Origin: Sphingopyxis sp.
GTDB taxonomy: Bacteria; Pseudomonadota; Alphaproteobacteria; Sphingomonadales; Sphingomonadaceae
DNA: 64,000 nucleotides
Reading direction: 5' to 3'
Assembly (NCBI GenBank): GCA_030148985.1
Contig: JASBSJ010000065.1
Coordinates: 62,001-126,000, forward strand
The notes under the pieces were generated by a model, which had not been told where the DNA came from, did no database searches, and worked only from the letters and a program-made list of their open reading frames with translations. The position numbers and the translations under genes are program-made. Of the stretch, positions 9,330 through 41,672 are shown piece after piece (position 1 is the stretch's first letter; every line of letters begins with the position of its first letter).

Positions 9330-10343
9330 TTAGTCCAGCTTTACCAGCAGCTTGCCCGTATTGCCGCTGGTGTACAGCAGGTTGAGCGCCTCTGGGGCAT
9401 TTTCGAGGCCATGGACCATGTGCACCGGCATCTTCAGCCTTCCGTCGCGCAGCCAGGTGGCCAGATCGGCAAGCACCGCCGGAAAAAGGTCCATATGATC
9501 GAGGATGACAAATCCGCGCACCGTCAGCCGGCGCATGATGAGGTTTCTGAACATGAAAGGCCCGGGCACCTTGCCGGCCGCGTTGTAGGTCGAGATCAAC
9601 CCGCAGACGACGAGTCGGCCGAAATCCTTCATGTGCGTAAGCGAGGCGTCAAGAATATCGCCGCCGACGTTTTCGAAGCACAAGTCGATGCCCTTGGGGC
9701 ACAGCTCTCCCAACCGATCGGCGACATTCTCGGTGCGATAGTTTATCGTGGCGTCGAAGCCCATTTCGCGGCGCAGCAGCGCACACTTCTCGTCCGAACC
9801 GGCAATGCCGATCACCCGCGCGCCGGCGATCTTCGCGATCTGGCCTACCAGCACGCCGACGGCACCTGCGGCACCGCTGACAACCACCGTCTCGCCGGAC
9901 CTCAGTCCGCCGATATGGTGGAGCCCGACATGCGCGGTGGGCCCGGCCACGCTCATCGTAGCGAAGGCTTCGGCCAGATCGATCCCGTCGAGCGCGGGAA
10001 ACGGGGCAAAGCCGGTGCCGTCGCTGACGATCAGGCTCGACCAAGTGTGAAGGCCACTTGCATGGCAGCCAACCGGATAATCCGGGTGGCGGCTGGCGAT
10101 GACCTCGCCGAAAACAAATCCGCGCATCGGCTCGCCGATCTGCACCGGCTCCATATAGATGTCCCAGTCACTCAGCCACACGCGGTTGGTGGCATCCAGC
10201 GAAAGATACAGCGTCCTGAGCAGGAACTGCCCATCGGCGAGATCGCCGACCGGCTCCTCGCGCCATTCGAACGTATCGCCGTTCACCTTTTCTGCCGGGC
10301 GTTCACGAAAATACCAGCGCTGCGCGGTCGTCTGGCGGTTCAT
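9330..10343 (-). CDS. Zinc-free MDR oxidoreductase (enone/alkenal reductase-like)
   Basis: A 337-residue medium-chain dehydrogenase/reductase lacking zinc-ligand cysteines. It has LSLDATNRVWLSD near the N-terminus, the nucleotide-binding motif VVSGAAGAVGVLVGQIAK, and CFENVGGDILDASL. This matches the NADP-dependent 2-alkenal/enone (CurA, leukotriene B4 dehydrogenase-like) group, which reduces C=C bonds conjugated to a carbonyl. The start is ATG at 10343, preceded by AGGAGAGG; a longer reading by 14 codons would overlap the Shine-Dalgarno sequence. It lies 19 bp downstream of the thiolase and is probably co-transcribed with it. Reduction of an unsaturated ketone before or during the island pathway is an inference. 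Confidence 0.85.
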   Translation of the reverse strand: MNRQTTAQRWYFRERPAEKVNGDTFEWREEPVGDLADGQFLLRTLYLSLDATNRVWLSDWDIYMEPVQIGEPMRGFVFGEVIASRHPDYPVGCHASGLHTWSSLIVSDGTGFAPFPALDGIDLAEAFATMSVAGPTAHVGLHHIGGLRSGETVVVSGAAGAVGVLVGQIAKIAGARVIGIAGSDEKCALLRREMGFDATINYRTENVADRLGELCPKGIDLCFENVGGDILDASLTHMKDFGRLVVCGLISTYNAAGKVPGPFMFRNLIMRRLTVRGFVILDHMDLFPAVLADLATWLRDGRLKMPVHMVHGLENAPEALNLLYTSGNTGKLLVKLD

Positions 10344-10362
10344 CGGCCTCTCCTCTTTTCTG

Positions 10363-11562
10363 TCATCCTGCGTGCCTTGCGACACGCTCGTAGATCGTCA
10401 CGATGCAGGCTCCGCCGAGGCCGATATTGTGCGCAAGCGCCAGTCGCGCGCCTTCGACCTGGCGGTTGCCAGCCAACCCGCGCAGCTGCCCCGCTAGTTC
10501 ATGACACTGGGCCAGCCCGGTGGCGCCCAGCGGATGCCCCTTTGCGAGCAACCCACCCGAGGGATTGACCACGACCTGCCCACCATAGCTGTTTTCGCCG
10601 TCGCGGATGAAACGCTCGGCCCCGCCTGGTTCGACGAGACCCAGCGATTCATAACAGAGCAGCTCGTTGCTGGTAAAGCAGTCATGCAGTTCGACGACAT
10701 CGATGTCGTCCGGGCCGACTCCGCTGGCCGCATAGACTTCAGCGGCGGCGCGGCGTGTCATGCCGGTGCCCACAGTCTCGCCAAGATCGGCACCGGCGAA
10801 GCTCTCCGGCCGGTCGGTTTCGCACCGCTGTGCCACGATCGCGACCCGATCATCGATACCGTGTCGGCGAGCGAACTGCGCCGAACACAGGATCGCCGCG
10901 GCCGCACCGCAGGTCGGCGGGCAACATTGCAGCCGGGTCAGCGGGCCGTAAAGGCGAGGAGGGGCTAGCACCTCCTCGACCGTTAGCGGGTTTCGGAAAA
11001 CGGCCAGCGGATTGTGAGCCGCGTGGCGGCGCGCCTTGCACGTGATCATCGCGAACACCTCGTCAGGCGCGCCATGACGCTGCTGATAGTCCAGCGCCGC
11101 ACCGCCGAACAGCCGCAGCGCCATGGGCGCATCCGATGGGCCAAAACGCTGATCGACGACGTTCAGAAATCGCGCCAACGGATCGGTGCGGTCATTATAT
11201 TGCGACTGAAGTGCGCCGGTGCGCATCTGCTCGAAGCCTAGCGCCAGCACGCATTGCGCCTCGCCTGCAAGGATCGCCTGCCGTGCCAGAAAGAGGGCCG
11301 ATGATCCCGATGCGCAGTTGTTGTTGACGTTGATCACGGGAATTCCGCTCATGCCAAGCGGATACAGGGCTGCCTGCCCTGCAGTGCTGTCGCCATAAAC
11401 ATAGCCGACATACGCCTGATCGATCTGTCCATAGTCGATCCCGGCCTGGCTCATCGCCTCGCTGATCGCGGCCAGCGCCATGGCGGTATAGTCCGGCGAA
11501 CGGGCAGGCGTGCAGAACGGCGTCATTCCCGTGCCGGCAACGATGATCGGGGTTTTGGTCAA
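10363..11562 (-). CDS. Thiolase, SCP2/lipid-transfer type
   Basis: A 399-residue thiolase-fold protein. It has the nucleophile region VNVNNNCASGSSALF (Cys near residue 83), the later HDCFTSNELLCYESLG, then NPSGGLLAKGHPLGATG with the catalytic histidine, and NIGLGGACIVTIYER. This is the SCP-x-like thiolase subgroup, which cleaves or forms beta-ketoacyl-CoA. The start is taken as TTG at 11562 because AGGAGAG lies just upstream and the protein then begins like its relatives (TKTPIIVAGTGMTPF). It is transcribed away from the LAL regulator gene, with a 17-bp palindrome between them. In this context it probably cleaves the beta-ketoacyl-CoA produced by the ligase at 21744. Confidence 0.88.
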   Translation of the reverse strand: MTKTPIIVAGTGMTPFCTPARSPDYTAMALAAISEAMSQAGIDYGQIDQAYVGYVYGDSTAGQAALYPLGMSGIPVINVNNNCASGSSALFLARQAILAGEAQCVLALGFEQMRTGALQSQYNDRTDPLARFLNVVDQRFGPSDAPMALRLFGGAALDYQQRHGAPDEVFAMITCKARRHAAHNPLAVFRNPLTVEEVLAPPRLYGPLTRLQCCPPTCGAAAAILCSAQFARRHGIDDRVAIVAQRCETDRPESFAGADLGETVGTGMTRRAAAEVYAASGVGPDDIDVVELHDCFTSNELLCYESLGLVEPGGAERFIRDGENSYGGQVVVNPSGGLLAKGHPLGATGLAQCHELAGQLRGLAGNRQVEGARLALAHNIGLGGACIVTIYERVARHAG

Positions 11563-11611
11563 TGCTCTCTCCTGCCTGGGCAGACCGTGCGAAATCTGCG
11601 GCACGGCTGAC

Positions 11612-11628
11612 CCACCCGAACGGGTGGG
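11612..11628. promoter_or_regulatory. Putative operator, copy A (CCACCCGAACGGGTGGG)
   Basis: A 17-bp inverted repeat in the divergent region, 50 bp before the thiolase start and 79 bp before the regulator start. It shares the pattern CYACCCNNNCGGGTGGG with sites at 14339 and 23334. The location suggests binding by the LAL regulator encoded next to it. Confidence 0.6.
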
Positions 11629-11706
11629 GTGGCGTTGCTGGAGCGAGCCGACTATCCTGTGCACAGCGCCCCATCGCTGCGACCAGAGGGCGCGAGGGGA
11701 GGGCCA

Positions 11707-14328
11707 ATGCCCGGAAAGACGAAATTCGATTTGCGGCGCGAAAAGCTGCTCGCGCGGATCGAAGGCGCCGCTGAAGCGCAACTGCTGCTGATCCATGCGC
11801 CCGCCGGTTTCGGCAAGTCCACGCTGCTGCGCCAGATTGCCGAACAGGCGCAGGACCAGGGATGCAGGGTTGGCTGGATCACGCCTATGTTGCGCGATGT
11901 CGAACTGCCACGGCTGGTCCAGCTGTTTTCCGCCGCCTGCGAAAGGCTGCTTGTGGAACAGAATGTTACTCAGACGCCGCGCGATCTGCCGGGGATGTTG
12001 GCTGCGCTGCAGGCCCCGGCATTGTTCGTTTTCGACGAGTATGACCAGTTTGCCGGGCCGGAAACCGATGCCTTTCTGGCGCGGGTGATCGAGACGCTGC
12101 CGACGGGCATCCGCATCGCCATCGCTTCGCGGGTCAAGCCCGATTTGGCGGCGGCGCGACTCAAGCTCAGCGGGCGGGCGATCGTCTTGGGCAGCATCGA
12201 CCTCCGCTTCGATCTGGGCGAGGCGCATCGGTTCTTCGCCGATCGGCCAGCTTTGGGGGCCGAAGAGGTGCGCCGCATCCACGCGCGGCTCGACGGATGG
12301 CCAGCCGCCTTTCAGTTCATCAGCCTGGCATTGCAATCTCCCAATGGTGCGAAAAGCGATGCGCTGGGCGAAGCGATGACCCACGACCTTGTCGATTATC
12401 TGGCGCAGGAAGTGTTCGCACGCCAGCCACCCGAGGTGCAGCAATTGCTGCTCGACGCGTGTCTGCCCGACCGCATCAATGCGCGGTTGCTGGAACATAT
12501 CACCGGTGGCGATGGTGCCGGCCTGCCGATCGACGTCCTGTCGATTGCGGGGCTGTTCCTCGATCCGGTCGATGGCGACCGGCAATGGTACAGGTTTCAT
12601 ACCCTGTTCGGCGACTTCTTGCGTGCGCGCTTCTGTGCCGCGACATCTCCTGAGGCGGTCGCGAAACGGCATCGGATGATCGCCGAATGGTTTGCCGCTG
12701 CAGATATGGCAGAAGCGGCGATCGATCACTTCCTCGCTGCCGGGCTTCAGCATGAAGCTGCTGATCTGCTCGAGACAATCGCGCAGCGTCTGGTAGGTGA
12801 GGAGCGGTTAGAGCTGCTGCTGACCCATGTCGAGCGGCTTGATCCGCAAACGTTCCTCGCGCGGCCATCGCTCGTCTCGCATGCGATCATCGCTTATGGT
12901 TTTCGCCGCGACTTTAGCCGCGCGCACCAGTTGCTGGACTGGATGCAGCACCACGAGCCCGACATCCCGTCGGATGCCCAGGCGGAAAGGGATGTCCTGC
13001 GCTGCTTCATTCTCGCGGCCGAAGACCATGTCGATGAGATGGGCGGGCATGCACGCGATGCGCTGCGCTGGCTGGCGGACTCGAGGCCGTTTTTCAAAGG
13101 GGTGGCGCTCAACGCCTATGCGTTCTGGTTGACCGCGCAGAACCAGTTTACCGAAGCTGCCGACCTTATGCTGCAGGCGCGCGCGCTGCATCAGGCGGCG
13201 GACAATTATTTCGGTGGAAGTTATGCCGAATCGATCCTCGGCAGCACCAAGATGTCGCAGGGTCAGGCCACCGAATGTGCGGTGCTGCTCGCGCGATCGC
13301 TGCAGGATGTGGAACAGCAGGCGCCGGGTGGAACCTGGGCGGGCGCGGTTGTTGCCGCGCATCTGGGCGATGCCTATTACGAGCTCAACCGTATCGCCGA
13401 GATGCGTGCGGTGATCGAAAAATACCTGCCGTTCATCCAGCAGCAGTGCATCGTCGATCCCTTGTGCCTGAGCACCGTTGCGCTGGCGCGCAGCGCGGCG
13501 ATGGAAGGCGACAGCGCCACCGCGCACGAGCTTTACGAAAGCCTGATCACCGCCGGGCATCGCTACGGCCTCGAGCGGCTGGTGACGTGCGGGCGGGCCG
13601 AGCTGGTGCGCGAGGCCACGCTTGCAGGCGATATAGAGGCAGCCGAACGGCGGATGCGCGCTCTGGGCCCCGAAGCGCGGCTTTCGACCGATGGCCGGCT
13701 GATCTTCGCCAGCGGCGAGACCGAGGCCCAGCGGATAACCTATCTGCGGCTGCTCGTTCATTCCAGGCGCCATGGCGAGGCCCGTGCCGGGCTGCAGAAT
13801 GAGATCCGCATTGCCAAGGTGCGTCGGCGTATCCGGCGGCTGGCCAAGCTCAAGACCCTCCTCGCCATCTCGCTGGAACAGGAGGGCAATCATCCGCTCG
13901 CAATGCGGATCATGATGAAGGCAGCGGGCAATGCGGCCCAGGGCGGGATGGTGCGGGTGATCCTGGACGAAGGGCCTGCAGCAATGCGCCTGATCAACGA
14001 GCTTGCGGCCGAACATTTCGCACAAAATCCCGCATGGGCAGTCGACCCGGTGGCGGCGCTGATTCGGCGCCTTGCCGATTCGCCCGATCTACAGTCGGAC
14101 GACACCCAGACGGTCTCGGGCCAACTGATCGAGCCGCTGACACCCCGCGAACTCGACCTGATCCGTTTTCTCGCGCGCGGCCACAGCAACACCGAACTGT
14201 CCGACCGACTGGCGGTCTCCGAAAACACGGTGAAATTCCATCTGCGCAACATCTATGCGAAGCTGGGCGCGAGCAATCGGATGCAGGCAGTGCAGGCTGC
14301 CCATCATTTTCAGCTCATCGAGCGATAA
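11707..14328 (+). CDS. MalT-type (LAL) LuxR-family transcriptional regulator
   Basis: An 873-residue regulator. A Walker A motif HAPAGFGKST lies near residues 29-38, LFVFDEYDQF supplies the Walker B region, and a long helical TPR-like middle follows. The C-terminal LuxR helix-turn-helix reads LTPRELDLIRFLARGHSNTE and SENTVKFHLRNIYAKLGASN. Proteins of this build (MalT, AlkS-like) are ATP-dependent activators that respond to a small inducer. The ATG at 11707 is chosen over an in-frame codon 78 bp upstream because GGGGAGGG precedes it and the upstream stretch would cover the palindrome. It is flanked on both sides by the catabolic genes it probably controls. Confidence 0.9.
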   Translation: MPGKTKFDLRREKLLARIEGAAEAQLLLIHAPAGFGKSTLLRQIAEQAQDQGCRVGWITPMLRDVELPRLVQLFSAACERLLVEQNVTQTPRDLPGMLAALQAPALFVFDEYDQFAGPETDAFLARVIETLPTGIRIAIASRVKPDLAAARLKLSGRAIVLGSIDLRFDLGEAHRFFADRPALGAEEVRRIHARLDGWPAAFQFISLALQSPNGAKSDALGEAMTHDLVDYLAQEVFARQPPEVQQLLLDACLPDRINARLLEHITGGDGAGLPIDVLSIAGLFLDPVDGDRQWYRFHTLFGDFLRARFCAATSPEAVAKRHRMIAEWFAAADMAEAAIDHFLAAGLQHEAADLLETIAQRLVGEERLELLLTHVERLDPQTFLARPSLVSHAIIAYGFRRDFSRAHQLLDWMQHHEPDIPSDAQAERDVLRCFILAAEDHVDEMGGHARDALRWLADSRPFFKGVALNAYAFWLTAQNQFTEAADLMLQARALHQAADNYFGGSYAESILGSTKMSQGQATECAVLLARSLQDVEQQAPGGTWAGAVVAAHLGDAYYELNRIAEMRAVIEKYLPFIQQQCIVDPLCLSTVALARSAAMEGDSATAHELYESLITAGHRYGLERLVTCGRAELVREATLAGDIEAAERRMRALGPEARLSTDGRLIFASGETEAQRITYLRLLVHSRRHGEARAGLQNEIRIAKVRRRIRRLAKLKTLLAISLEQEGNHPLAMRIMMKAAGNAAQGGMVRVILDEGPAAMRLINELAAEHFAQNPAWAVDPVAALIRRLADSPDLQSDDTQTVSGQLIEPLTPRELDLIRFLARGHSNTELSDRLAVSENTVKFHLRNIYAKLGASNRMQAVQAAHHFQLIER

Positions 14329-14338
14329 ATATCATATC

Positions 14339-14355
14339 CTACCCATCCGGGTGGG
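14339..14355. promoter_or_regulatory. Putative operator, copy B (CTACCCATCCGGGTGGG)
   Basis: Second copy of the 17-bp inverted-repeat pattern, 77 bp before the first carboxylase gene and just after the regulator stop. A separate 7-bp-stem hairpin (CGCGGGT/ACCCGCG, 14400-14418) lies in the leader between this site and the ATG. Confidence 0.6.
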
Positions 14356-14432
14356 CAGGCAGGCGGCAAGCTCCGGCAACACCATGAGCATCGAAACACC
14401 GCGGGTAGGAAACCCGCGCAAAGGGGGATGCC

Positions 14433-16295
14433 ATGGGCCTGCTGGTCAATATCGACAACGGCGGAACGCTGACTGACGTCTGCGCCTTTGACGGCACCAG
14501 AGTCTATCATGCCAAGACCCTCACCACGCCGCACGACCTCACCGAATGCCTGATGGCCGCACTTGCTGCTCTGGCACAACAGACCGATGCCGATGGCGAT
14601 CTGCTGCGGCTGGTCGGGTCGATCGATCATCTGCGCTATTCGACGACCCAGGGCACCAATGCCATCGCCCAGCGCAAGGGGCCAAGGCTGGGCCTCCTGG
14701 TGCAGACGGACGCGGACGCTCAGGCGCTGCGTGCGGGGTCGCCCGAACTGTATGAAACGCTGGTGGGTCGGCGCATGGCGGTGCTGGGGGGAGCAAGCGA
14801 CCGCGATGTGGTGCAGGCGGTCCGCGGGCTTGTCGCGGCGGGTGCGAGCCGGCTGGTGATCTGCCTTGCAGGGGATGAAGCCGCTGACGGCGAGATGCAT
14901 GTGCGGCGATTGCTCTATGCAGCTTTTCCCCGTCATCTGCTGGGCGCCGTGCCGCTGCTGTTTTCGACCGAGCTCGCGCCCGGGGCGGAGTTCAGCCGAC
15001 GTGGCTGGTCCAGCCTGCTGAACGCGTTTCTGCATCCTTCGATGGAACAGTTTCTCCACCATGCCGAGAACCGCCTGCGGCAGGAGCGGATTCGCAATCC
15101 GCTGCTCGTTTTCCGAAACGATGGCGGCTCGACCCGCGTGGCGCGCACCATCGCGCTTCACACTTATTCGTCCGGCCCCCGCGGCGGGGCCGAAGGCGGC
15201 GGCGTGATCGCGGCGCATTATGGGCTGGACCGCGTCGTGTCGATCGACATCGGCGGCACCACAACCGATCTGGCCCTGTTTGCCGGTGGTAAGGTGGCAG
15301 AACATGCCCTGGGCCATGTCGAAAGCGCGCCGATCGCCTTTCCGATGGCCGAGGTGCCCAGCCTTGCCGCCGGAGGCGGTTCGGTGCTGGCGGTAAGCGA
15401 CGGCAAGGTCACGGTCGGTCCCGAAAGCATGGGCGCGCTGCCGGGTCCAGCCTGCTTTGGACGTGGCGGTACCCAGGCTACGATAACCGATGTCATGTTG
15501 CTGACGGGCGTTATCGATCCGGCCAGCTATTTCGGCGGGCAGATGGTGCTCGATCGCGAGCGGGCGGAACGGGCCGTTCGCCAGCATCTTGCAGAGCCCC
15601 TTGGCGTGTCGATCGAGGAAGCGCTGGACCTTGCCGAGGCAGCCTATGACAGTGCGATTGCGGCATCGGTGGGCAGGCTGGCAGGGGAGGGCAGTGCCGA
15701 TGCGCTGCTGGCCTTTGGCGGTGCCGGGCCGATGAATGCCTGTGGGATTGCCGAGCGAGCCGCAATATCGCGGGTGCTGGTGCCGCGTTTTGCCGCCGTG
15801 TTCAGCGCGTTCGGCATCGGCTTCAGTCCCATCCGGCACGAGTATCGTTGCGAGCTTGCAAACTTTGCACCCGATCGCCTGGCCGAAGCGCAGGCCAAGC
15901 TCACCCGCAAGGCAGAACGGGGCATGCAGGGCGAGGGCTTCGATCTGGCAGATTGCACGATCGGTTGGCGCGTGGCGCGCAGCGACGGCACATCAGGGCT
16001 GGTCGAAGGCCAACCGGTGGATGCACCCGGAACGCTGGTGATGCATGTCGAACGCCCGATTGCGGTGCCGCAGCTAGGGCCGGCATCGGCTGACAGGCTG
16101 CGCCCCGCCAAGGCCAGCGCCACCCGCCAGGCGCGCGGCGCGCTGCCGCTCTACCGCATCGAAGAGATGGCGCCGGGCGATGGAGCCGATGGGCCATGCC
16201 TGATCGAGGAGCAGTTCTTCACCTGTCAGGTCCGTCCCGGCTGGCGCTTTGTCGTCACCGGCAACCACGACCTGATGATCGAACGCGAGGCTTGA
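14433..16295 (+). CDS. Ketone carboxylase subunit, HyuA-like (apc1 position)
   Basis: A 620-residue hydantoinase A/oxoprolinase-family protein. The N-terminal phosphate-binding motif reads DNGGTLTD (residues 8-15), altered from the usual DIGGTFTD; the second motif is canonical, SIDIGGTTTDLALF near residue 270. Then come GGGSVLAVSDGKVTVGPESM and ALLAFGGAGPMNACG. It is clearly shorter than the second HyuA-like gene at 16716. Size and position match the first subunit of acetophenone carboxylase (about 70 kDa), an ATP-dependent enzyme that carboxylates aryl ketones. The start follows AAAGGGGG. The altered first motif may mean this copy is structural rather than catalytic. Confidence 0.8.
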   Translation: MGLLVNIDNGGTLTDVCAFDGTRVYHAKTLTTPHDLTECLMAALAALAQQTDADGDLLRLVGSIDHLRYSTTQGTNAIAQRKGPRLGLLVQTDADAQALRAGSPELYETLVGRRMAVLGGASDRDVVQAVRGLVAAGASRLVICLAGDEAADGEMHVRRLLYAAFPRHLLGAVPLLFSTELAPGAEFSRRGWSSLLNAFLHPSMEQFLHHAENRLRQERIRNPLLVFRNDGGSTRVARTIALHTYSSGPRGGAEGGGVIAAHYGLDRVVSIDIGGTTTDLALFAGGKVAEHALGHVESAPIAFPMAEVPSLAAGGGSVLAVSDGKVTVGPESMGALPGPACFGRGGTQATITDVMLLTGVIDPASYFGGQMVLDRERAERAVRQHLAEPLGVSIEEALDLAEAAYDSAIAASVGRLAGEGSADALLAFGGAGPMNACGIAERAAISRVLVPRFAAVFSAFGIGFSPIRHEYRCELANFAPDRLAEAQAKLTRKAERGMQGEGFDLADCTIGWRVARSDGTSGLVEGQPVDAPGTLVMHVERPIAVPQLGPASADRLRPAKASATRQARGALPLYRIEEMAPGDGADGPCLIEEQFFTCQVRPGWRFVVTGNHDLMIEREA

Positions 16296-16301
16296 GTCCC
16301 C

Positions 16302-16712: not shown

Positions 16713-16715
16713 GCC

Positions 16716-18872
16716 ATGCGGCGTGTTTCGGTCGATATCGGCGGCACCTTTACCGATTGCTTCCTGGTGTGGGACGATCAGTATGTCGCAGCCAAGGCGC
16801 TGACGACGCATCAGAATCTGGCTCTGGGCTTCAATGCTTCGCTGGCACAGGCCTATGCCCGTCTCGGGCTTGGGCTTGAAGACGTGATGGCCGAGGTCGA
16901 TAGTGTGCGCTACGCCACGACGCTCGGCACCAATGCGCTGATCGAGCGGCGCGGGCCGAAGGTGGGGCTGATCACCACCGCCGGGTTCGAGAGCAGCGTG
17001 CCGCTGAGCCGCGGGCGCGGCTATGGCGAAGGCCTGTCCGAACGGCTGCGCAAAGATCTGCCAATGGCGCAGCGTCCCGAGCCGATCGTGCCGATCCCGC
17101 TGATCGTCGGCATCCGCGAGCGGATGGCCGAAAATGGCGGCGTGATCATGGCGCTCGACGAGGACGACCTGCGCGCGCAAGTGCATCGGCTGGTCGATCG
17201 CGGCGCGCAGGCGTTCGTCGTCAGCCTGGTCAATTCGGTGGTCAATCCGGCGCACGAGCTGCGCGTCGAGGAGGTCATCCGCGAGGAATTTCCCGAGCAT
17301 ATGCTGGGTTCTGCGCCAATCATCCTTTCGCACAAGGTGGTTGGCCGCAAGGGCGAATATGTCCGCACCTCCTCGGCGATCCTCGACGCATTCCTGCACA
17401 AGGCGATGTACCTCGGCCTTTCCAGCCTGGAGCTCAACCTGCGCGAAAACGGGCACGAGCGGCCGATGCAGGTGGTGCACAATTCGGGCGGCATGGCGCA
17501 GCTCAATTCGACCGATGCGCTGCAGACGATCCACAGCGGCCCGGTCGCAGGCATCGCCGCGTCCGAGCATCTCGCCGCGGAGACCGATCTTGGCAACATC
17601 GTGTGCACCGATATGGGCGGTACCAGCTTCGACATCGGGCTGGTGGTCGAGGGGGGAATCAAGTTCTACGACTTCAATCCCGTCATCGACCGCTGGCTGG
17701 TCAATATCCCGATGGTTCATCTGGTGACACTGGGCGCGGGGGGCGGTTCGATCGCGCAGTTCGACCGGCTGCGCCAGACAGTATCGGTCGGGCCCAAAAG
17801 CGCCGGCTCCGATCCCGGCCCGGCATGTTATGACAAGGGCGGGCGCGATGCGACGGTGACCGATGCCGATCTGCTGCTCGGCTATCTGCGCGCGGACGAT
17901 TATGCTGGCGGGCGGATCACGCTCAGCGCCAAGCGCGCCGACAGCGTGATGCGGCGGACCTTGGGCGAGGTGCTGGGGATCGATACGATCGCGGCGGCCA
18001 AATTGGTCAAGCAGCGCGTCGACAACGACATGGCCAACGGCATTGCCACCGAATTGCGCGCACGCGGCTATGAGCCGGGCCAGTTCACCATGCTGGCCTA
18101 TGGCGGCAACGGCGCGCTGCATGCCTGCGGAATCGCCAATGCGATCGGCATCACCCGGGTACTCGTGCCGCCGTTCAGCTCGGTGTTCTCGGCAGTCGGC
18201 GCGGGCAATATGGACCAGCTCCACATCCACGAACGGTCATTGTACCTGCAGGTCTATGACAGCGGCAAACGCGCGCTAATGGACGACTTCGATGGTTTTA
18301 ATGCCATCGTCGCCGAGCTTGAGGCGCGCGGTCGCGCCGATCTGCTGCGGCAGGGTTTTGCCGAGGCCGACATCCGCTATCGGCTCGAGGTCGATCTGCG
18401 CTATGGTAACCAGCTCGCTCAGACCGCGGTGGTGGTGGGGCGCAACCGGATAGCCAATAGCCACGAGCTGCTCGAGCTGATTGCGTTGTTCGGGCATGAT
18501 TATGGTAAGCGCTACGGCGAGGGCAGCCAGTCGCCCGAGGCCGGAATTCGCATCAACACGGTGCGGGTGGCCTCCTATGTGACAAGCCCCAAATTGCGCT
18601 TTTCTGACATTCTCCCATCCGATGACAGCCTGCACGACGCGCCTGCACCCTCGGTGGTTCACCCGTGTCATTTCATCGGCTTCGAAGGCCCGGTGCAGAC
18701 AGGTTTTCACGTGCTCGAAGACCTCGATCTCGGCGCGGTGGTGCGTGGCCCTGCGGTGGTGACCTCGCAATCGACGACCTTTCTGGTCGAGCCGGGCTGG
18801 CAGCTTTCGGTAGGCCGTTATGGCGCGGGCTGGCTGCAGCGCAACGAGATTGCTTCAGGAGTGACCCCATGA
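16716..18872 (+). CDS. Ketone carboxylase subunit, HyuA-like (apc3 position)
   Basis: A 718-residue hydantoinase A/oxoprolinase-family protein with both ATP-binding motifs: SVDIGGTFTDCFLV at residues 5-18 and CTDMGGTSFDIGLVV near residue 299. It also has RYATTLGTNALIERRGPKVG and TLGAGGGSIAQFD. It belongs to the larger HyuA type of ketone carboxylases, where the ATPase-like subunit phosphorylates bicarbonate and/or the ketone enol. Its stop overlaps the start of the HyuB-like gene (ATGA), which supports fixed stoichiometry in a complex. Confidence 0.85.
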   Translation: MRRVSVDIGGTFTDCFLVWDDQYVAAKALTTHQNLALGFNASLAQAYARLGLGLEDVMAEVDSVRYATTLGTNALIERRGPKVGLITTAGFESSVPLSRGRGYGEGLSERLRKDLPMAQRPEPIVPIPLIVGIRERMAENGGVIMALDEDDLRAQVHRLVDRGAQAFVVSLVNSVVNPAHELRVEEVIREEFPEHMLGSAPIILSHKVVGRKGEYVRTSSAILDAFLHKAMYLGLSSLELNLRENGHERPMQVVHNSGGMAQLNSTDALQTIHSGPVAGIAASEHLAAETDLGNIVCTDMGGTSFDIGLVVEGGIKFYDFNPVIDRWLVNIPMVHLVTLGAGGGSIAQFDRLRQTVSVGPKSAGSDPGPACYDKGGRDATVTDADLLLGYLRADDYAGGRITLSAKRADSVMRRTLGEVLGIDTIAAAKLVKQRVDNDMANGIATELRARGYEPGQFTMLAYGGNGALHACGIANAIGITRVLVPPFSSVFSAVGAGNMDQLHIHERSLYLQVYDSGKRALMDDFDGFNAIVAELEARGRADLLRQGFAEADIRYRLEVDLRYGNQLAQTAVVVGRNRIANSHELLELIALFGHDYGKRYGEGSQSPEAGIRINTVRVASYVTSPKLRFSDILPSDDSLHDAPAPSVVHPCHFIGFEGPVQTGFHVLEDLDLGAVVRGPAVVTSQSTTFLVEPGWQLSVGRYGAGWLQRNEIASGVTP

Positions 18873-21094
18873 CCAGTTCCAGCGACAAGGTGAACGAATT
18901 TCTGCAGGACGCCACGCTGTTCCTGGCACCCGATCCAGAGATCATGAACAACCACGGCTTTGCCCCGCGCTCGGCGCTTGAGGAGCGGTGCATGGCGAAG
19001 GAGAGTGATCCCGCCCGGATCGAGATCGTCCGCGAGCGGCTGATGGCCGGTGCCAATGAGAGCTTCGAGATGCTCGAGAACATGGGCGCGGCGCCGGGCG
19101 CGAAATGGGGTGATTGCGTTTCGGCGATGTTCACCGCTTCGGGCGATCTCAGCCTCGCCAGCACAGGCGGTGTCGTGATTTTCGTCAATCTGGTCCAATA
19201 TCCGATCAAGTTCATCAACAAATATTGGAAGAACGATCCCAGCGTCGGTGTGCGCGAGGGTGATGCCTTTCTGGTCAACGATGCGCACTATGGCCAGGCG
19301 CACAATACCGACCAGTCGCTGATGATGCCGGTGTTCTGGGAAGGCGAGCACGTCGCCTGGGTCGGCGCGACCGTGCACGAGGGCGAGAATGGCGCGATCG
19401 AACCCGGCGGCATGCCGTCGATCGCCGAGCAGACCTGGGATGAGGGGCTCAAGATGCCGCCGTTTCGGGTCGCCGAAAATTATGTGCTGCGCCGCGACAT
19501 CGTCACCTTCCTGCAGAATTCGGTGCGCGAGCCCAAGCTGCAATATGCCGATATGAAGGTGAAGATGTACACCTGCCGCAGGCTGGAGCAGCGCATCCAC
19601 GAGGCGATCGCCGAGTTCGGCGTGGAAGCGGTGGTCGCCTGTCTGCGGCGCAACCTTGAGGATACCGATGCCGAGGTGCGGCGCAGGCTGAAGGAATGGC
19701 CCGACGGCACCACCCGCCATGCCTGGTGGACCGATGGCACGCTGCGCGAAAATGCGCTGATCAAGATCAATCTGGCGGTTACCAAGAAGGACGACGTGCT
19801 GACCTTCGACTATCGCGGATCGTCGCCCGAGTTCGCCAACCGCGCCAACAACACCCTCGACATCACGCTCAAGGGCATGCTTTCGCAGCTGATGCTTGCC
19901 TATGTTTGGCCCGATCTGCCGCGCAACCAGGCGGTGCTCAATTCGGTGCGCTTCATCTTCGACGAGCATTCGATCATGCGCCCTGCGCCGACCGCGCCGA
20001 TCTCGCAATGCATGATGTCGGTGTTCACCTCGTGGAGCGTCGCGCAGGTCTCGGTGATGAAGTTCCTCTATTGCGTGCCGGACAAATACACCCGGGTGAT
20101 CGCGCCCTGGTATTGCATGATCAACACCTTCCTGTTCGGCGGGCTGACCCAGCATGGCGAGATGGTGGGCAATGTCTGCGCCGACATCAACGGCATGGGC
20201 GGCGGCGCGCTGGCGGATCGCGACGGTCAGCAGAGCTGCGCGCCGATCTTTGCCACCATGGCGGATCTTGGCGAGCAGGAGTTCATGGAGGAGGAGATGC
20301 CGTTCGTGCAGCTCGTCTCCAAGAAGCTGATGCGCGACAATCAGGGCTTTGGGCGGCAACGCGGCGGCATGGGCTATCAGATGATGCTGGCACTGCGCGA
20401 CAGCCCGGCCTGGGGCTTCATGCTGACCGCGATCGGATCGAAATTCCCCAACGTGCCGGGCCTGTTCGGCGGCTATGGTTGTCCGACCTATCCGCTGGCG
20501 CGCGTACGCGGCATCGACGTGTTCGAGGCGATGCGCACCGACCCCGGCCAGTTCCGCTATTCGATAGCCGAGATGATGAACGAGCAACCATTTCCCGAGG
20601 CGCAATACAGCACCCACCCGATGTCGCTGCCTTATGCGCTGGCTGCGCGAGGCGAACTGTACATGATTGCACAGGGCACCGGCGGCGGCTTCGGCGATCC
20701 GCTCGAGCGCGACCCGGCGGACGTGATGCGCGACCATGAGGAGGATCTGGTCTCCGACGAGGTTGCGTGGCGCATCTATCGCGTGGTGTTCGACCCCCAG
20801 ACCCGGATCGTCGATGAAGAGGCGACAGCGAAAGCGCGCCAGGCGGTGCGCGATGAGCGGCTGGCGGGTGCAATGAGCTATGACGATTATTGTGCGCAGC
20901 ATGTCACCGCCAAGCCACCCGCGCATCTGCCTTATTATGGCAGTTGGGACGATACCAAGACGCTCTATGCGGGTAGCCCGGATGTGAGCTTTCCCGCAGG
21001 TGAGGCCGGCCCGCCGATCATCATGCCGCATCCACTGCAGGTACGGATCGACGCGCTCGAACGGCAGCTTGCTGCGCTGCAGACTGCAGGCTGA
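18869..21094 (+). CDS. Ketone carboxylase subunit, HyuB-like (apc4 position)
   Basis: A 741-residue hydantoinase B/oxoprolinase-family protein. Recognisable parts are DAFLVNDAHYGQAHNTD, FDYRGSSPEFANRANNT, RGGMGYQMML and GTGGGFGDPLERDP near the C-terminus. The ATG at 18869 overlaps the stop of the preceding subunit. Family knowledge: the HyuB-type subunit carries the carboxylation or amidohydrolase site. It is longer than the HyuB at 49232 (627 residues) and has an N-terminal extension, which fits the acetophenone-carboxylase type rather than a hydantoinase. Confidence 0.85.
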   Translation: MTSSSDKVNEFLQDATLFLAPDPEIMNNHGFAPRSALEERCMAKESDPARIEIVRERLMAGANESFEMLENMGAAPGAKWGDCVSAMFTASGDLSLASTGGVVIFVNLVQYPIKFINKYWKNDPSVGVREGDAFLVNDAHYGQAHNTDQSLMMPVFWEGEHVAWVGATVHEGENGAIEPGGMPSIAEQTWDEGLKMPPFRVAENYVLRRDIVTFLQNSVREPKLQYADMKVKMYTCRRLEQRIHEAIAEFGVEAVVACLRRNLEDTDAEVRRRLKEWPDGTTRHAWWTDGTLRENALIKINLAVTKKDDVLTFDYRGSSPEFANRANNTLDITLKGMLSQLMLAYVWPDLPRNQAVLNSVRFIFDEHSIMRPAPTAPISQCMMSVFTSWSVAQVSVMKFLYCVPDKYTRVIAPWYCMINTFLFGGLTQHGEMVGNVCADINGMGGGALADRDGQQSCAPIFATMADLGEQEFMEEEMPFVQLVSKKLMRDNQGFGRQRGGMGYQMMLALRDSPAWGFMLTAIGSKFPNVPGLFGGYGCPTYPLARVRGIDVFEAMRTDPGQFRYSIAEMMNEQPFPEAQYSTHPMSLPYALAARGELYMIAQGTGGGFGDPLERDPADVMRDHEEDLVSDEVAWRIYRVVFDPQTRIVDEEATAKARQAVRDERLAGAMSYDDYCAQHVTAKPPAHLPYYGSWDDTKTLYAGSPDVSFPAGEAGPPIIMPHPLQVRIDALERQLAALQTAG

Positions 21095-21747
21095 TGGACC
21101 GGCTGTGGATCGACGCGCATGATTATGGCGTGCGGCTGCTGCGCGGCGGTAGCGAGCCATGGCTTGTCCCTGCGACATTGGGGCCGTTCTGCGGCGAGCT
21201 TGTCGGTCTGCTGCAGCCCTACCGCCTTGTGGTGCCGGTTGCGCCGCTGCTGCGTGCGGATATGGACGATGAGGTCGATACCGCAGCCGCGCTGGAGAGC
21301 ATCGTGGACTCCAGTGCGTTCGCGCTGGCGCTGGAGACGGGACTTGCGACGCTAGCGCACGGGGCGGGCGCAGGGCTGCTGGTGCCGATGCTTCCTGGCC
21401 CGACGATGCTGGGCTGCAATGCGGACGACGAGGATGCGCTGGACGATTGCCTTGCCACGCTTGGTGCCGTGCTGCGCCTTATGCTTGGGGTTCGCTTGAG
21501 CGGGGCGATTCTGATCGACGAGCCCGATCCCATCGCACGCGAAGCGATGGGTCCGCTGCATCGGATCGCGAAGCATGGCGGCGTGGATCTGCGGATCCTG
21601 GGCGAGGGGCTCGTCTCGGTCGGCTGGAACGCGCTTGAAGGGGTTGCCGCCGCGCGCGAGACGCAGGTGAGGGTGCCCGCCGATGTCGAGCCCGAAGCGG
21701 TGCTCGCGCGGCTGGCGGCGCTACGGTCGCCGGAGCGCGGATCATGA
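21094..21747 (+). CDS. Unknown protein in apc5 position of the carboxylase operon
   Basis: A 217-residue soluble, acidic, Ala/Leu-rich protein that I do not recognise as a known family. It starts one base inside the stop of the HyuB-like gene and overlaps the ligase start by 4 bp, so it is certainly part of the operon. In the acetophenone carboxylase operon this position holds the fifth, loosely bound subunit needed for activity, but that protein is larger (about 34 kDa versus about 23 kDa here). I see no catalytic motif. There are conserved-looking patches LLVPMLPGPTMLGCN and LSGAILIDEPDPIA. Assignment as a subunit is by position only. Confidence 0.6.
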   Translation: MDRLWIDAHDYGVRLLRGGSEPWLVPATLGPFCGELVGLLQPYRLVVPVAPLLRADMDDEVDTAAALESIVDSSAFALALETGLATLAHGAGAGLLVPMLPGPTMLGCNADDEDALDDCLATLGAVLRLMLGVRLSGAILIDEPDPIAREAMGPLHRIAKHGGVDLRILGEGLVSVGWNALEGVAAARETQVRVPADVEPEAVLARLAALRSPERGS

Positions 21748-23312
21748 GCCTGTTGTTTCACGACGCGTTCGATTTTCTGGTTCGGTCGCGCCCTGATCAG
21801 CTCTGCATCGTCGACGACGCGCGCAGCCTGACGTTCGCCGAAGCGGGTGCGGAGGTGAACCGGATCGCGCACGGGTTGCGCGCCATCGGCCTCACCAAGG
21901 GCGACCGGTTCGGCTATCTCGCCAAGAACAACGCTGACATGTGGCTGATGTATCTGGCGGCTGCGCGCACCGGAATCGTCCCGGTTCCGCTCAACTACCG
22001 GCTCGCGCCTGCCGAGTGGCGGCATATCCTGATCGACGCGCATGCCAGGGCGTTGTTCGTCGGGACGGGTCATGACGCGCAAGTGGCGCAGATCGCCGAT
22101 GATCTCCCGGAAGTTGGCACGCTGGTCTCGTTCGACGGTACGCTGGAGGGCGCACTGCATTATGCGACCTGGCTCGCGGAGCAGCCCGGCACGCCGATGG
22201 CATCAGCGACGAGCGCTGAGGACATCTTCTACCAGATGTACACCAGCGGAACGACCGGCCTGCCCAAGGGGGTGCTGGTCAGCCACGCCAATTATGCCGC
22301 CAACATCAGCCAATGCCTGCAGATGATCACGCGATTGCCCGATGCCGGCGGGACTGCGGTTGTCGTCACCCCGCTCTATCATGCCGCCGCGGTGTGGATT
22401 GCGGCCTTCTGCACCGCGCGCGGGCTGACCATCCATCTCAAGACGGATTTCGACCCGCACGACGTCGTCGATACGCTCGAGCGCGAGCGGGCGCGCTTCA
22501 CCTTCCTGGTGCCCGCGATGATTCAGGCGTGCCTGACGCAGGTCGATGACATCGCAGAGCGCGACTGGTCGCATCTCGGCCTGTTGATGTATGGCGCATC
22601 GCCGATTGCCGAAGATGTGCTGCGCCGCGCGATCGCTGTGTTCGGCTGCGATGTCTATCAGGCCTATGGCATGACCGAGACCACCGCGATCCTCAGCCTG
22701 TTGGGAGCCGACGAGCATCGCCGCGCGCTGGCGGGCGAGGAGCATCTGCTGCTCGCGTGCGGCCGCGCGCTGCCCGGCACCGAGATCGTGATCGCGGGCG
22801 AGGACGACGCGCCGTTGCCACCAGGCGCGGTCGGCCAGATTCTTGCGCGCGGGCCGCAGATCGTTCCCGGCTATGCCAACCTGCCTGAGGCCACCGCCGC
22901 CTTTCTCGATCGCGGCTGGGCGCATACTGGCGATGCCGGCGAGATTGACGCCGAGGGCTATGTCTATATCCGCGACCGCATCAAGGACATGGTGGTGAGC
23001 GGCGGCGAGAACATCTATCCGCGCGAGATCGAGAACGTGCTGTTCGATCACCCGCTGATCGTTGACGCTGCCGTCATCGGCGTGCCCGATGAACGCTTCG
23101 GCGAGGCCTTGCTCGCCTTTGTCGTCACTGCCGGCGATGTCGCTATAGCGGCCCAGGAGGTGATCGCCTTCTGCCGCGAGCGACTGGGCGGATACAAGGT
23201 TCCGCGCCGGATCGAACAGGTGGAGACGCTGCCGCGCAACGCCAGCGGCAAGGTGCTCAAGCACGAGCTGCGCGCGCCTTATTGGGCGGCCTCAGGCCGC
23301 ATGGTGGGTTGA
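21744..23312 (+). CDS. Acyl-CoA ligase (AMP-forming), beta-keto-acid ligase candidate
   Basis: A 522-residue ANL-superfamily enzyme. The P-loop is YTSGTTGLPKGVLVSH near residue 165, then YQAYGMTETTAIL, the hinge region YIRDRIKDMVVSGGENIYPR, and the C-terminal lysine in PRNASGKVLKHELR. It activates a carboxylic acid to its CoA ester through an acyl-adenylate. The operon position directly after the carboxylase genes mirrors the benzoylacetate-CoA ligase step of aryl ketone degradation, so the likely substrate is the beta-keto acid made by the carboxylase. The exact acid is not readable from sequence. Confidence 0.88.
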   Translation: MSLLFHDAFDFLVRSRPDQLCIVDDARSLTFAEAGAEVNRIAHGLRAIGLTKGDRFGYLAKNNADMWLMYLAAARTGIVPVPLNYRLAPAEWRHILIDAHARALFVGTGHDAQVAQIADDLPEVGTLVSFDGTLEGALHYATWLAEQPGTPMASATSAEDIFYQMYTSGTTGLPKGVLVSHANYAANISQCLQMITRLPDAGGTAVVVTPLYHAAAVWIAAFCTARGLTIHLKTDFDPHDVVDTLERERARFTFLVPAMIQACLTQVDDIAERDWSHLGLLMYGASPIAEDVLRRAIAVFGCDVYQAYGMTETTAILSLLGADEHRRALAGEEHLLLACGRALPGTEIVIAGEDDAPLPPGAVGQILARGPQIVPGYANLPEATAAFLDRGWAHTGDAGEIDAEGYVYIRDRIKDMVVSGGENIYPREIENVLFDHPLIVDAAVIGVPDERFGEALLAFVVTAGDVAIAAQEVIAFCRERLGGYKVPRRIEQVETLPRNASGKVLKHELRAPYWAASGRMVG

Positions 23313-23333
23313 ATCGAACGAAGAATGTCACGC

Positions 23334-23350
23334 CTACCCTTTCGGGTGGG
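23334..23350. promoter_or_regulatory. Putative operator, copy C (CTACCCTTTCGGGTGGG)
   Basis: Third copy of the 17-bp pattern CYACCCNNNCGGGTGGG. It lies 21 bp after the ligase stop and 130 bp before the TonB receptor start, implying that the receptor has its own promoter under the same regulator. Confidence 0.55.
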
Positions 23351-23480
23351 GGTGTTTGGCAGGGCATGATTATCCCGTGATCAGGCGGGGCCCGACAAAC
23401 CTGCTCAATACTGCCCGAGGCGCAAAAAGCGTCCGGGGTGCCGCATTCGGCAGCGAATGACATCTAGGGGAGAATGCACG

Positions 23481-25733
23481 ATGGCTAGCCTGAAATCCTA
23501 TCTGTTTGCCGGATGCGCCATGGCGGCGATGCTGGTGAGCGCGCCGGCGCATGCGCAGGAGGCCGACACGCGGGCCGAGCCCCAGAGCGGGATTGCCGAT
23601 ATCGTGGTGACCGCACAGCGCCGCTCGGAATCGCTGCAGGACGTGCCGCTCGCGGTGTCCGCGCTCGATGCCGACCGCATCCGCGAGGCGGGCTTCAACG
23701 ATGTCGAGGATCTGAGCTCGACCGTGCCCAATCTCAATATTTCGGCGCTGTGGGGAACCTCCAACCCCAAGATCTTCATGCGCGGCATCGGCAACAACAA
23801 TTTCAACCAGACCGCCGAAAGCAAGGTCGCGGTCTATCTCGACCAGGTCTATCTCTCGGCGCCGTCGGGACAATTATTCCAGATGTACGACCTCGACCGG
23901 ATCGAAGTGCTTCGCGGGCCGCAGGGCACGCTGTACGGCAAGAACGCCACCGGCGGCGCGATCTCGGTATATTCCAAACTGCCCGGCGACGAGGTCGAGG
24001 GCTATGTCCGCGCCGGCTATGGCAATTACGACGCGTTCGAACTGGAAAGCGCGGTGACGCTACCGCTGTCCAGCACGCTTTCGGCGCGGGTCGCCGGCAC
24101 CTGGTCCAAGCGCGACGGCTATGTCACCGATGTGCGCGACGGATCGCGGGTCAACGATGCCGACCAATGGGCGGCGCGCGGCATCTTGCGCTGGCAGCCA
24201 TCGTCCGATGTCGACATCAAGCTGAATTTCCACGGCGGCGGATCGGATTCGACCCATAACAACAGCGTGCATCGCGGCATCTTCGATCCGGCGCAGTTGG
24301 CGCTTGGCAATTTCGTCAAGCTGCCCGCCGATGCCATCATCGCGCGCAACGGGGTCGATATCCTGGGCTATCGCGATCCCAATTCCGACCCCTATGTCAA
24401 CGAATATGAAGGCGAGACCTTCGCCAAGATCGACCTTTTCGGGGTGTCGCTGGTCGGCGATTTCACGCTCGGCAACGGCTATACGCTGACCTCGGTCACC
24501 GGGTACGAGCATTCCAAGCGGCATGTGCTGCAGGAGGGCAATGGCGCGCCCAGCACGATCTTCACGATCAACTGGGGACCATCCGACTTCAAGACCTATT
24601 CGCAGGAATTGCGCCTTGCTTCGCCCGATGACGGCAGCTTCAGCTGGCTGATCGGCGGCTTCGTGTTCCACGAAAAGGGCGTGGTCAACAATTTCTACAA
24701 CCTCACTTCGGTCGCCTTCGCGCTTAGCGTTGATGCCTTCGACCAGGATTATGTGCAGAAGACCGACACCTATGCCGCCTTTGCGCAGGGCACGCTCGAG
24801 CTTGCCGACCAGCTCAACCTGACGATCGGCGGACGCATCAACCATGAAAAGCGCACGCTCGATCACACCGTGTTCGCGACCGACACCGCGCGTGTCTCGC
24901 TGCTGCCCGGACCGCTGTTCGACCTGCAGCTTGAGGAAAGCTGGACCGAATGGTCCGGCCGCATCGCGCTCGATTACACGATTGCCGAAGATGTCCTGGT
25001 GTTCGCCAGCGTCAACCGCGGCTTTACCAGCGGCGGCTTCAACACCGGCGCGTTCAACGATCCGGTTGGGGCGCAGCGCACCTTCGATCCGGAAACAGTG
25101 ATCAGCTATGAGGCGGGGATCAAGTCCACCCTGCTGGATCGTCGCTTGAAGCTGAACGCCACCGCATTCCTGTATGATTATAGCGACCTGCAGGTGTTCA
25201 CCTTCACTGCCGGCGGGTTGCAGTTCATCGAGAACGCCTCCAACGCCCAGATCAAGGGCATCGAGTTCGAGATGCAGACGGTCCCGGTCGATAATCTGGA
25301 ACTGGGGGCCAGCCTTGGCTTTCTGAAGAGCGAATATCGCAACTTCACCCGCGCCACCGGCGGCGTGGTCGAGGATCTCAGCGGCAACCGGCTGATCGGG
25401 GCGCCCAACACCCAGATCAATCTGGTCGGCAAATATACGGTGCCCACCGATGTCGGCGATTTCTGGCTGCGCGGCGATTATAGCTATACCGGCAACCGCT
25501 TCTATGACGAGCGCCAGCTGCGCGAGCTGAGCAGCGAAGGTGGTACCAGCAACCTCAACGCATCAATCGGCTATACCGGGCTGGACGAAACGCTGGAGCT
25601 GACATTGTGGGTCAAGAATCTGACCAAGGAGGTCAGTATCATCGACGTGGTCGAGGTCGGGCTCTTTGGTTACCAGAATGTCTGGTACAACATGCCGCGG
25701 ACCTATGGCGTGAGCCTCGAATATCGGTTCTGA
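23481..25733 (+). CDS. TonB-dependent outer membrane receptor
   Basis: A 750-residue receptor. A signal peptide ends near AHAQ at residue 26, followed by a TonB box-like IADIVVTAQRR and a plug domain with FMRGIGNNNFNQ and RIEVLRGPQGTLYGKNATGG. A 22-strand barrel ends in SLEYRF. The start is ATG at 23481, preceded by AGGGGAGAA. It is the last gene of the ketone island and has a copy of the putative operator in front, so it probably imports the island's substrate or a precursor rather than iron. The substrate is unknown. Confidence 0.92.
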   Translation: MASLKSYLFAGCAMAAMLVSAPAHAQEADTRAEPQSGIADIVVTAQRRSESLQDVPLAVSALDADRIREAGFNDVEDLSSTVPNLNISALWGTSNPKIFMRGIGNNNFNQTAESKVAVYLDQVYLSAPSGQLFQMYDLDRIEVLRGPQGTLYGKNATGGAISVYSKLPGDEVEGYVRAGYGNYDAFELESAVTLPLSSTLSARVAGTWSKRDGYVTDVRDGSRVNDADQWAARGILRWQPSSDVDIKLNFHGGGSDSTHNNSVHRGIFDPAQLALGNFVKLPADAIIARNGVDILGYRDPNSDPYVNEYEGETFAKIDLFGVSLVGDFTLGNGYTLTSVTGYEHSKRHVLQEGNGAPSTIFTINWGPSDFKTYSQELRLASPDDGSFSWLIGGFVFHEKGVVNNFYNLTSVAFALSVDAFDQDYVQKTDTYAAFAQGTLELADQLNLTIGGRINHEKRTLDHTVFATDTARVSLLPGPLFDLQLEESWTEWSGRIALDYTIAEDVLVFASVNRGFTSGGFNTGAFNDPVGAQRTFDPETVISYEAGIKSTLLDRRLKLNATAFLYDYSDLQVFTFTAGGLQFIENASNAQIKGIEFEMQTVPVDNLELGASLGFLKSEYRNFTRATGGVVEDLSGNRLIGAPNTQINLVGKYTVPTDVGDFWLRGDYSYTGNRFYDERQLRELSSEGGTSNLNASIGYTGLDETLELTLWVKNLTKEVSIIDVVEVGLFGYQNVWYNMPRTYGVSLEYRF

Positions 25734-39491: not shown

Positions 39492-39498
39492 TGCCCGT

Positions 39499-41660: not shown

Positions 41661-41672
41661 GATCTTTCCTTA

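Follow-up and report, generated by a model that had tools for sequence, protein, structure and literature searches.

Closest Described Systems and the Locus

As of 2017, only one enzyme of the acetophenone carboxylase (Apc) type had been characterized, that of Aromatoleum aromaticum EbN1, whose ApcABCDE genes are followed by one for benzoylacetate-CoA ligase (PMC5214803; here and below, papers given by PMC number are cited from portions of their text). A role for the AdiRS two-component system is predicted in EbN1, whose thiolase was unidentified at the time of that paper (PMC4729919). The related AcxABC enzymes (5M45, 5SVB) also carboxylate ketones at the expense of ATP and share the gamma subunit, but they have three subunits and neither alpha' nor epsilon (PMC5214803). 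Aerobic ketone carboxylation is further found in the Acv/Hpe acetovanillone pathway of Sphingobium SYK-6 and Rhodococcus GD02, one host being a sphingomonad; that carboxylase contains biotin and acts after phosphorylation of the phenol, acv is homologous to hpe, and the EbN1 enzyme is not homologous to HpeCBA (PMC9618137), which led us to drop an acetovanillone carboxylase reading. Here we describe positions 9330 to 25733 of a 64,000-nucleotide stretch of Sphingopyxis sp. DNA (the window; contig JASBSJ010000065.1), a block of ten genes that includes a five-gene Apc-like operon. As judged from its sequence, the block reads as one regulon, and it very probably degrades a ketone by Apc-type, ATP-dependent carboxylation. 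An aliphatic or enone-derived ketone is the substrate class we somewhat favor; the ketone is probably neither acetophenone nor plain acetone.

Carboxylase Subunits and Their Phylogeny

The preliminary description of this DNA had reported five consecutive carboxylase genes of 620, 136, 718, 741, and 217 amino acids, and their order, overlaps, sizes, and coordinates were all reproduced; the order is that of the acetophenone carboxylase operon plus ligase, as had been claimed. Relatives' loci are denoted below by L-numbers and genomes by G-numbers. Apc (5L9W) is the top solved relative of all four core subunits. The alpha subunit (ApcC-like, a proposed ketone kinase; 16716..18872, plus strand, 718 amino acids), searched against all PDB chains, scored 523 bits with the 5L9W gamma chain, and 285, 278, and 263 bits with Acx, oxoprolinase, and hydantoinase, respectively. 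For alpha' (ApcA-like, the second ATP-binding ASKHA subunit; 14433..16295, plus strand, 620 amino acids), the top match was the 5L9W alpha chain at 303 bits. The beta subunit (ApcD/HyuB-like; 18869..21094, plus strand, 741 amino acids) scored 271 bits with the 5L9W delta chain, 148 with Acx, and 99 with the hydantoinase chain of 6YRA, and the gamma subunit (ApcB/AcxC-like, Zn-binding; 16302..16712, plus strand, 136 amino acids) scored 107 bits with the 5L9W beta chain and 43 with Acx. Pfam matches were far above chance: 127 bits for Acetone_carb_G in gamma (cut-off 21), 203 and 240 for Hydantoinase_A, and 287 for Hydantoinase_B. Functional residues are likewise recognizable: alpha' carries the phosphate motifs DNGGTLTD and DIGGTTTD and a PGP motif, all four Zn cysteines of gamma are kept in two CxxC pairs (C20, C23, C76, and C79), and so are the four metal ligands of beta (D65, H123, D126, and H148). 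Gamma is close in length to its Apc counterpart (129 residues, compared with 168 in Acx). The window also contains the motif RERMAENG; a consensus of seven clade rows reads RERVDxxG.

A phylogenetic tree was built from 75 of 99 prepared alpha and alpha' rows by a quick method with SH-aLRT supports, and it contains long branches, that of Acx being the longest. From the 41 distant loci (L054-L094), 15 were chosen by hand; four further loci were left out, L010 and L031 because of a stop inside the matched stretch and L028 and L050 because of truncation. The window alpha falls in a 54-row branch with 5L9W_B (support 96), apart from Acx, hydantoinase, and oxoprolinase; clustering with the latter two families, which had been named beforehand as the outcome contrary to ketone carboxylation, was not seen. 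Together with L015, L109, and L016, its nearest group, the window forms a unit with support 100. This unit belongs to a 39-row clade (support 99), whose sister is a 14-row group containing true Apc. Rows on the window side span Pseudomonadota, Actinomycetota, Campylobacterota, and haloarchaea. Neither the two-gene layout with alpha in the hydantoinase branch, nor the three-gene acxABC order lacking alpha', applies to the window.

The clade includes five-gene Apc-like clusters of Neorhizobium petrolearium, Cupriavidus necator N-1, Rhodococcus jostii RHA1, Helicobacter suis, and Halorientalis, whose alpha subunits are 47-63% identical to that of the window. Their gene order is the same, and the substrate pocket is nearly identical in the rows compared (C. 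necator contributed none). Several differ in their neighbors, which are a CoA-transferase, an acetoacetate-CoA ligase, or another AMP-ligase, and in having sigma-54/Fis or HTH-domain regulators. Searches of the open-access literature listed no paper recognizable as testing a member of this clade.

The pocket separates most of the clade from Apc itself. Seven alpha residues are proposed to line the acetophenone pocket (PMC5214803), and L81, F281, N282, P285, I333, Q344, and T345 of Apc correspond to T, I, H, P, I, H, and L in the window, i.e., two are kept and five changed. The pattern T-[I/V/L]-H-P-I-H-L is present in 24 of 31 clade rows, the other seven being variable, and its two histidines mark most of the clade. 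L045 and L048, tree neighbors of Apc, retain more of the Apc pocket. The seven positions do not separate the window from clade members that lie beside CoA-transferases.

Some features speak against an Apc-type ketone carboxylase. All four NCBIfam equivalog models, ApcA to ApcD, scored under their cut-offs (344.5/1250, 125.5/250, 538.9/1500, and 312.1/1500 bits), the window beta is longer than that of Apc (684 residues; Acx, 776), and of the alpha' residues lining the proposed bicarbonate site of Apc, only D274 is kept, E248 and K281 being replaced by S and D. Because the equivalog cut-offs are missed by far and five of the seven pocket residues are changed, acetophenone carboxylase proper is not a supported identification. 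Relative to EbN1, then, the window shares the subunit set, gene order, ligase behind the operon, ATP motifs, Zn cysteines, beta metal site, and epsilon fold family, but it represents a sister clade with a changed pocket, a short epsilon, and a longer beta, and it adds a dedicated SCP2 thiolase, an enone-reductase-type gene, a LAL regulator, and a receptor.

Two groups of relatives deserve separate mention. The Helicobacter clusters L035 and L037 are of Apc type, lie beside 3-oxoacid CoA-transferase-like genes, and branch within actinobacterial rows; an epsilon-like gene was picked in L035 and not in L037. Transfer is likely, and the enzyme is perhaps of the acetone type. CobW/G3E GTPase-like genes occur near L009, L017, L018, L020, L021, L022, L026, L032, L034, and L040, and a sigma-54/Fis-type regulator is found at several of these loci as well; the GTPase-like neighbors suggest metal delivery to the carboxylase.

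The Fifth Gene

The 217-amino-acid product of the fifth gene (21094..21747, plus strand) has no Pfam or NCBIfam match, and the path from its own sequence to ApcE is an indirect one through relatives. In many other clade members, the genes that follow beta belong to one epsilon family (picked by hand from 26 relatives and L010). A profile hidden Markov model of 24 epsilon proteins, built without the window group, found L016 (E 1e-32), L015, L109, and the window protein (E 1.2e-14), the best of 1000 shuffles reaching 0.008. Conversely, a window-group profile recovered 23 of these 24 proteins at scores passing the inclusion threshold, including those of Neorhizobium, Cupriavidus, RHA1, and H. suis, with Halorientalis marginal (E 0.019), and profile-profile comparison of the family with the window group gave 99.8%.

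The connection to ApcE comes from two sides. A model of the longer epsilon of L018 (pLDDT 94.1) has the solved ApcE structure 9FOU in ranks 1 to 3 (E 2e-6 to 3e-6; TM score 0.61-0.65 by query length), followed by uroporphyrinogen decarboxylases. On the Apc side, the gene behind beta in L045 has a product matching 9FOU at 1e-17; six sphingomonad loci have an equivalent gene between gamma and alpha, and L014 has one between alpha' and gamma. Three of the six scanned have a Pfam URO-D match. These eight equivalents aligned with the epsilon family at 97.7%, with controls at no more than 0.2% (20 column-shuffled) and 0.1% (reversed); the value was 93.4% for L045 combined with L014 and 96.4% for the sphingomonad genes by themselves. 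Values were not significant for L045 alone (4.8%) or for the equivalents against only the four window-group epsilons (34%). Because of its membership in the epsilon family, the L018 fold, and the alignment of the Apc-side equivalents with that family, the fifth gene is assigned, through these relatives, as a probable ApcE-type subunit of the uroporphyrinogen-decarboxylase fold family.

This assignment has to be set against several observations. The window protein is shortened to 217 residues, and its own AlphaFold2 model (pLDDT 90.6) gave weak matches to generic TIM barrels, ApcE being absent from the 50 listed. The 24-protein profile hit no PDB chain at E values up to 10, and in several clade loci (e.g., L023, L024, L025, L033, and L037) no gene resembling epsilon was picked.

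Loci L113 to L119, from the same order, represent a second Apc-like type within the 14-row group that contains true Apc. An ApcE/URO-D-related gene lies between gamma and alpha in six of these seven (none was found in L114), and all seven have AMP-ligase, thiolase, and TonB receptor matches.

A Shared Palindrome and the Regulator

The palindrome YACCCN4GGGTGGG (YACCCNNNNGGGTGGG) occurs three times in the block. Operator-like site 1 (CCACCCGAACGGGTGGG, 11611..11628) lies between the divergent thiolase and regulator genes, site 2 (CTACCCATCCGGGTGGG, 14339..14355) 77 bases before the alpha' start of the carboxylase operon, and site 3 (CTACCCTTTCGGGTGGG, 23334..23350) before the receptor gene. In the latter two, the palindrome proper spans 14340-14355 and 23335-23350. 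Exact matching found no copy elsewhere in the surrounding 2.94-Mb assembly (73% complete) and none in 100 shuffles of the window. All three sites in the L015 genome are in its island, at the same three places; the places of sites 1 and 3 are also kept in L109. The genome of L016 (G412) has a single site, in the island and before the MDR-regulator pair, and looser forms precede alpha' in L010, L025, L030, and L052. A reversed-pattern control gave no match in four of five genomes.

The regulator gene (11629..14328, plus strand) may have its true start slightly downstream of the first GTG. Its product is of the MalT-like LAL type of LuxR regulators (GerE, 61.6 bits; TPR_MalT, 59.9 bits), and PRK04841 matched at 263 bits, under its cut-off of 537. 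Among 42 clade loci, with LAL loci listed by hand, the palindrome was present in 6 of the 10 with a LAL-type match, compared with 3 of the 32 without (p 0.002). Because the palindrome is shared and co-occurs with LAL genes, the sequences support one regulon that binds together reductase, thiolase, carboxylase, ligase, and receptor, with the LAL protein as the likely binder of the palindrome. The earlier picture of a self-contained system gains from an operator-like element common to three transcription units.

The correlation is imperfect, and part of the record runs counter to a dedicated operator. Four of the ten loci with a LAL match have no palindrome, and three of the 32 lacking that match have one. 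The palindrome is absent before alpha' in L109 and L016, two of the four sites in G100 (the L109 genome) are outside the island, and the one site of G077 is away from its cluster; G077 also accounts for the two matches in the reversed-pattern control.

Accessory Genes and the Substrate

The AMP-ligase, the TonB receptor, and the upstream thiolase and enone-reductase-like gene of the preliminary description are all present at the places given there. The thiolase (10363..11562, minus strand, 399 amino acids, TTG start) occupies the end of a 796-codon open frame (10363-12753), of which the last ~399 amino acids constitute the homologous protein. It exceeds the cut-off of PRK08256, a lipid-transfer protein model (615 bits; cut-off 436), and its nearest PDB entries are the SCP2-thiolase type-1 6HSJ (421 bits) and then a bacterial benzoylsuccinyl-CoA thiolase (205 bits), making it SCP2/SCPx-type. 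SCPx cleaves 2-methyl-branched 3-oxoacyl-CoAs. The AMP-forming acyl-CoA ligase (21744..23312, plus strand, 522 amino acids; PRK06187, 487.8 bits, cut-off 476) is of the long-chain type, is nearest in the PDB to fatty-acyl and feruloyl-CoA synthetases, and is expected to activate the 3-oxo acid. The TonB-dependent outer-membrane receptor (23457..25733, plus strand, 758 amino acids; TonB_dep_Rec, 134 bits; Plug, 69 bits) has counterparts at the same place in L015 and L109 (74% and 73% identity over the main matched stretch; the L109 copy is cut by the locus end).

The MDR gene (9330..10385, minus strand; ADH_N_2, 98.7 bits) encodes an NADPH-dependent double-bond (enone) reductase-like protein. 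Its PDB matches include prostaglandin, 2-alkenal, and pulegone reductases, and CurA matched at 299 bits, under its cut-off of 440; identity at the same place is 73% in L015, 71% in L109, and 58% in L016. The proposed enone-reductase gene is a family-level match, of the PGR/curcumin-reductase type, and an enone would be a possible entry compound.

An activating enzyme for the 3-oxo acid is what a ketone carboxylase, unlike a hydantoinase, needs next. Considering loci of at least 18 kb, and counting CoA-transferases, acetoacetate-CoA ligases, and AMP-ligases, such a gene was nearby in 21 of 33 (of 42) clade loci and in 3 of 16 (of 41) hydantoinase-type loci (Fisher p 0.005); when the three query-source loci are omitted, the clade count is 18/30 (p 0.012). 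That 12 of the 33 showed none counts against the ketone-carboxylation reading. Of five loci scanned, L010, L016, and L052 have acetoacetate-CoA ligase (TIGR01217), and L021 and L035 have 3-oxoacid CoA-transferase (TIGR02429), each above its curated cut-off. The earlier proposal of an Apc-type carboxylase acting with a CoA ligase and a thiolase is supported by homology, by the tree, by the conserved metal and Zn ligands, and by these recurrent neighbors. Because an SCP2-type thiolase, an enone-reductase-type gene, and a receptor accompany the carboxylase, we infer from the sequences a larger, possibly alpha-substituted or enone-derived ketone. Within the open-access literature, we found nothing on ketone carboxylation of phytone, and PMC7888143 mentions neither acetophenone nor apc.

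Of the alternatives, a five-subunit acetone or butanone carboxylase, yielding acetoacetate (or 2-methylacetoacetate) and then acetyl-CoA, survives best, and we judge it unlikely. Several clade members, including L016, the next relative, do adjoin an acetoacetate-CoA ligase or 3-oxoacid CoA-transferase, the pocket hardly varies across the clade, and genes annotated as acetophenone carboxylase lie beside scoAB in Helicobacter bizzozeronii (PMC3234257). However, in the window, L015, and L109, those activating enzymes are replaced by a long-chain-type ligase and an SCP2 thiolase, and an enone-reductase-type gene and a TonB receptor should be needless for a small volatile ketone. An acetophenone (aryl methyl ketone) pathway as in Aromatoleum, giving aroyl-CoA and acetyl-CoA, appears slightly less probable again. 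The five-gene order plus ligase is the same (PMC5214803) and Apc is the top solved relative, but the missed equivalog cut-offs and the pocket, which L045 and L048 beside Apc keep better, argue otherwise, as does the resemblance of the ligase to fatty-acyl/feruloyl-CoA synthetases; moreover, L109 has an acyl-CoA-dehydrogenase-family gene between those for ligase and receptor, which fits a saturated acyl-CoA. An ATP-dependent cyclic amide hydrolase (hydantoinase, oxoprolinase, or lactamase) is highly improbable despite the HyuA/HyuB families common to both, as hydantoinases lack gamma, alpha', and epsilon (PMC5214803), the window lies outside the hydantoinase branch, a ligase and thiolase would make no sense, and the window has its hydantoinase-type pair elsewhere, at 49232-53186.

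Proposed Pathway

For a carboxylation pathway acting on a larger ketone, the outer-membrane receptor would take up the compound and, if this is an enone, the MDR protein would saturate its C=C bond. Alpha would phosphorylate the ketone in its enol form, and alpha' would make carboxyphosphate from bicarbonate, so that two ATP would be spent, as has been proposed for Apc. The complex would be held together by beta and gamma, and epsilon, as an ApcE-type TIM barrel, may help to join CO2 to the enol. The AMP-ligase would then convert the 3-oxo acid to its CoA thioester, which the SCP2-type thiolase would cut to acyl-CoA and acetyl-CoA; were a methyl group present on the carboxylated carbon, i.e., with an alpha-methyl-substituted ketone, propionyl-CoA would be released in place of acetyl-CoA. 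The LAL regulator is predicted to sense the pathway and to bind the ACCC-N4-GGGT palindrome that precedes each of the three transcription units.

Earlier work has already established the chemistry and the order of the genes, and Apc-like operons have been noted elsewhere (PMC5214803, PMC3234257, PMC4729919); new, within the literature searched, are the split of the clades and the pocket pattern that marks it, the assignment of epsilon in this clade, and the palindrome-defined regulon. We tentatively suggest, as a scenario with rather less than even chances, that the window belongs to a second, broad clade of ATP-dependent ketone carboxylases with five subunits and a two-histidine pocket, within which the sphingomonad subgroup shifted from acetone-like ketones to larger ones that are alpha-substituted or derived from enones, such as those of terpenoid or other plant origin. 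This subgroup would carboxylate an internal carbon, the SCP2-type thiolase would cleave the 2-branched 3-oxoacyl-CoA, and the whole path would be under one LAL regulator with a newly recognized operator.

The spread of the sister clade across three bacterial phyla and haloarchaea suggests that biotin-free carboxylation is a widespread mode of ketone use. As the pathway seems to bring its own regulator, operator, uptake, and cleavage genes, its substrate should be findable through inducers of three defined promoters, and the predicted operator could serve as a ketone biosensor. The histidine pocket makes aryl versus alkyl ketone use a testable difference.

Genomic Setting and Neighboring Genes

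Within the block, the MDR and thiolase genes are on the minus strand, and the regulator, the five carboxylase genes, the AMP-ligase, and the receptor are on the plus strand. L015 has the same ten genes; L109 has these ten and the acyl-CoA-dehydrogenase-family gene, for which no model exceeded its cut-off, and the flanks differ. L016 has the reductase, regulator, five subunits, and an acetoacetate-CoA ligase, with no thiolase or receptor match within the stretch examined. The sphingomonad-like label of the preliminary description fits, the nearest named relative being a Sphingopyxis metagenome-assembled genome. A gamma gene was found in none of 24 other genomes of the genus; in the order, 16 of 396 genomes, its own included, had a match (E 0.001), 13 of them over 100 bits. 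Its distribution gives the block the look of an accessory module.

In a comparison with 39.8 kb of G001, a genome of the same genus, similarity ends exactly at the last base of tRNA-Phe, position 8505, beyond which there are only short matches to the receptor gene; because the similarity stops there, the tRNA-Phe end is a variable spot. A genomic island with att repeats was considered and rejected: a repeat of the tRNA-Phe 3' end (8481-8505) was found neither in the window (up to three mismatches) nor in the rest of the assembly (up to two mismatches). An integrase-made island is not supported. About 800 bases behind the tRNA-Phe (8430-9330 region) look by eye like remnants of IS5-type transposases, and G+C content drops from 66-69% to 61-66% beyond the tRNA.

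A second catabolic-looking cluster occupies 45982-61040 on the minus strand. It includes the hydantoinase/lactamase-type pair (49232-51202 and 51138-53186), and no gamma gene was seen in it. Also present are genes for a CaiB-type CoA-transferase, two aconitase/LeuC-type proteins, one Aconitase_C protein, an HMG-CoA-lyase-like protein, an isochorismatase, an Amdase-like protein, and an FAD monooxygenase; from this content, the cluster perhaps degrades an N-heterocycle or lactam. Between the two clusters, at 38121-44008 on the minus strand, are three closely spaced open reading frames with Sel1 repeats (38121-39677, 39499-40581, and 42494-44008).

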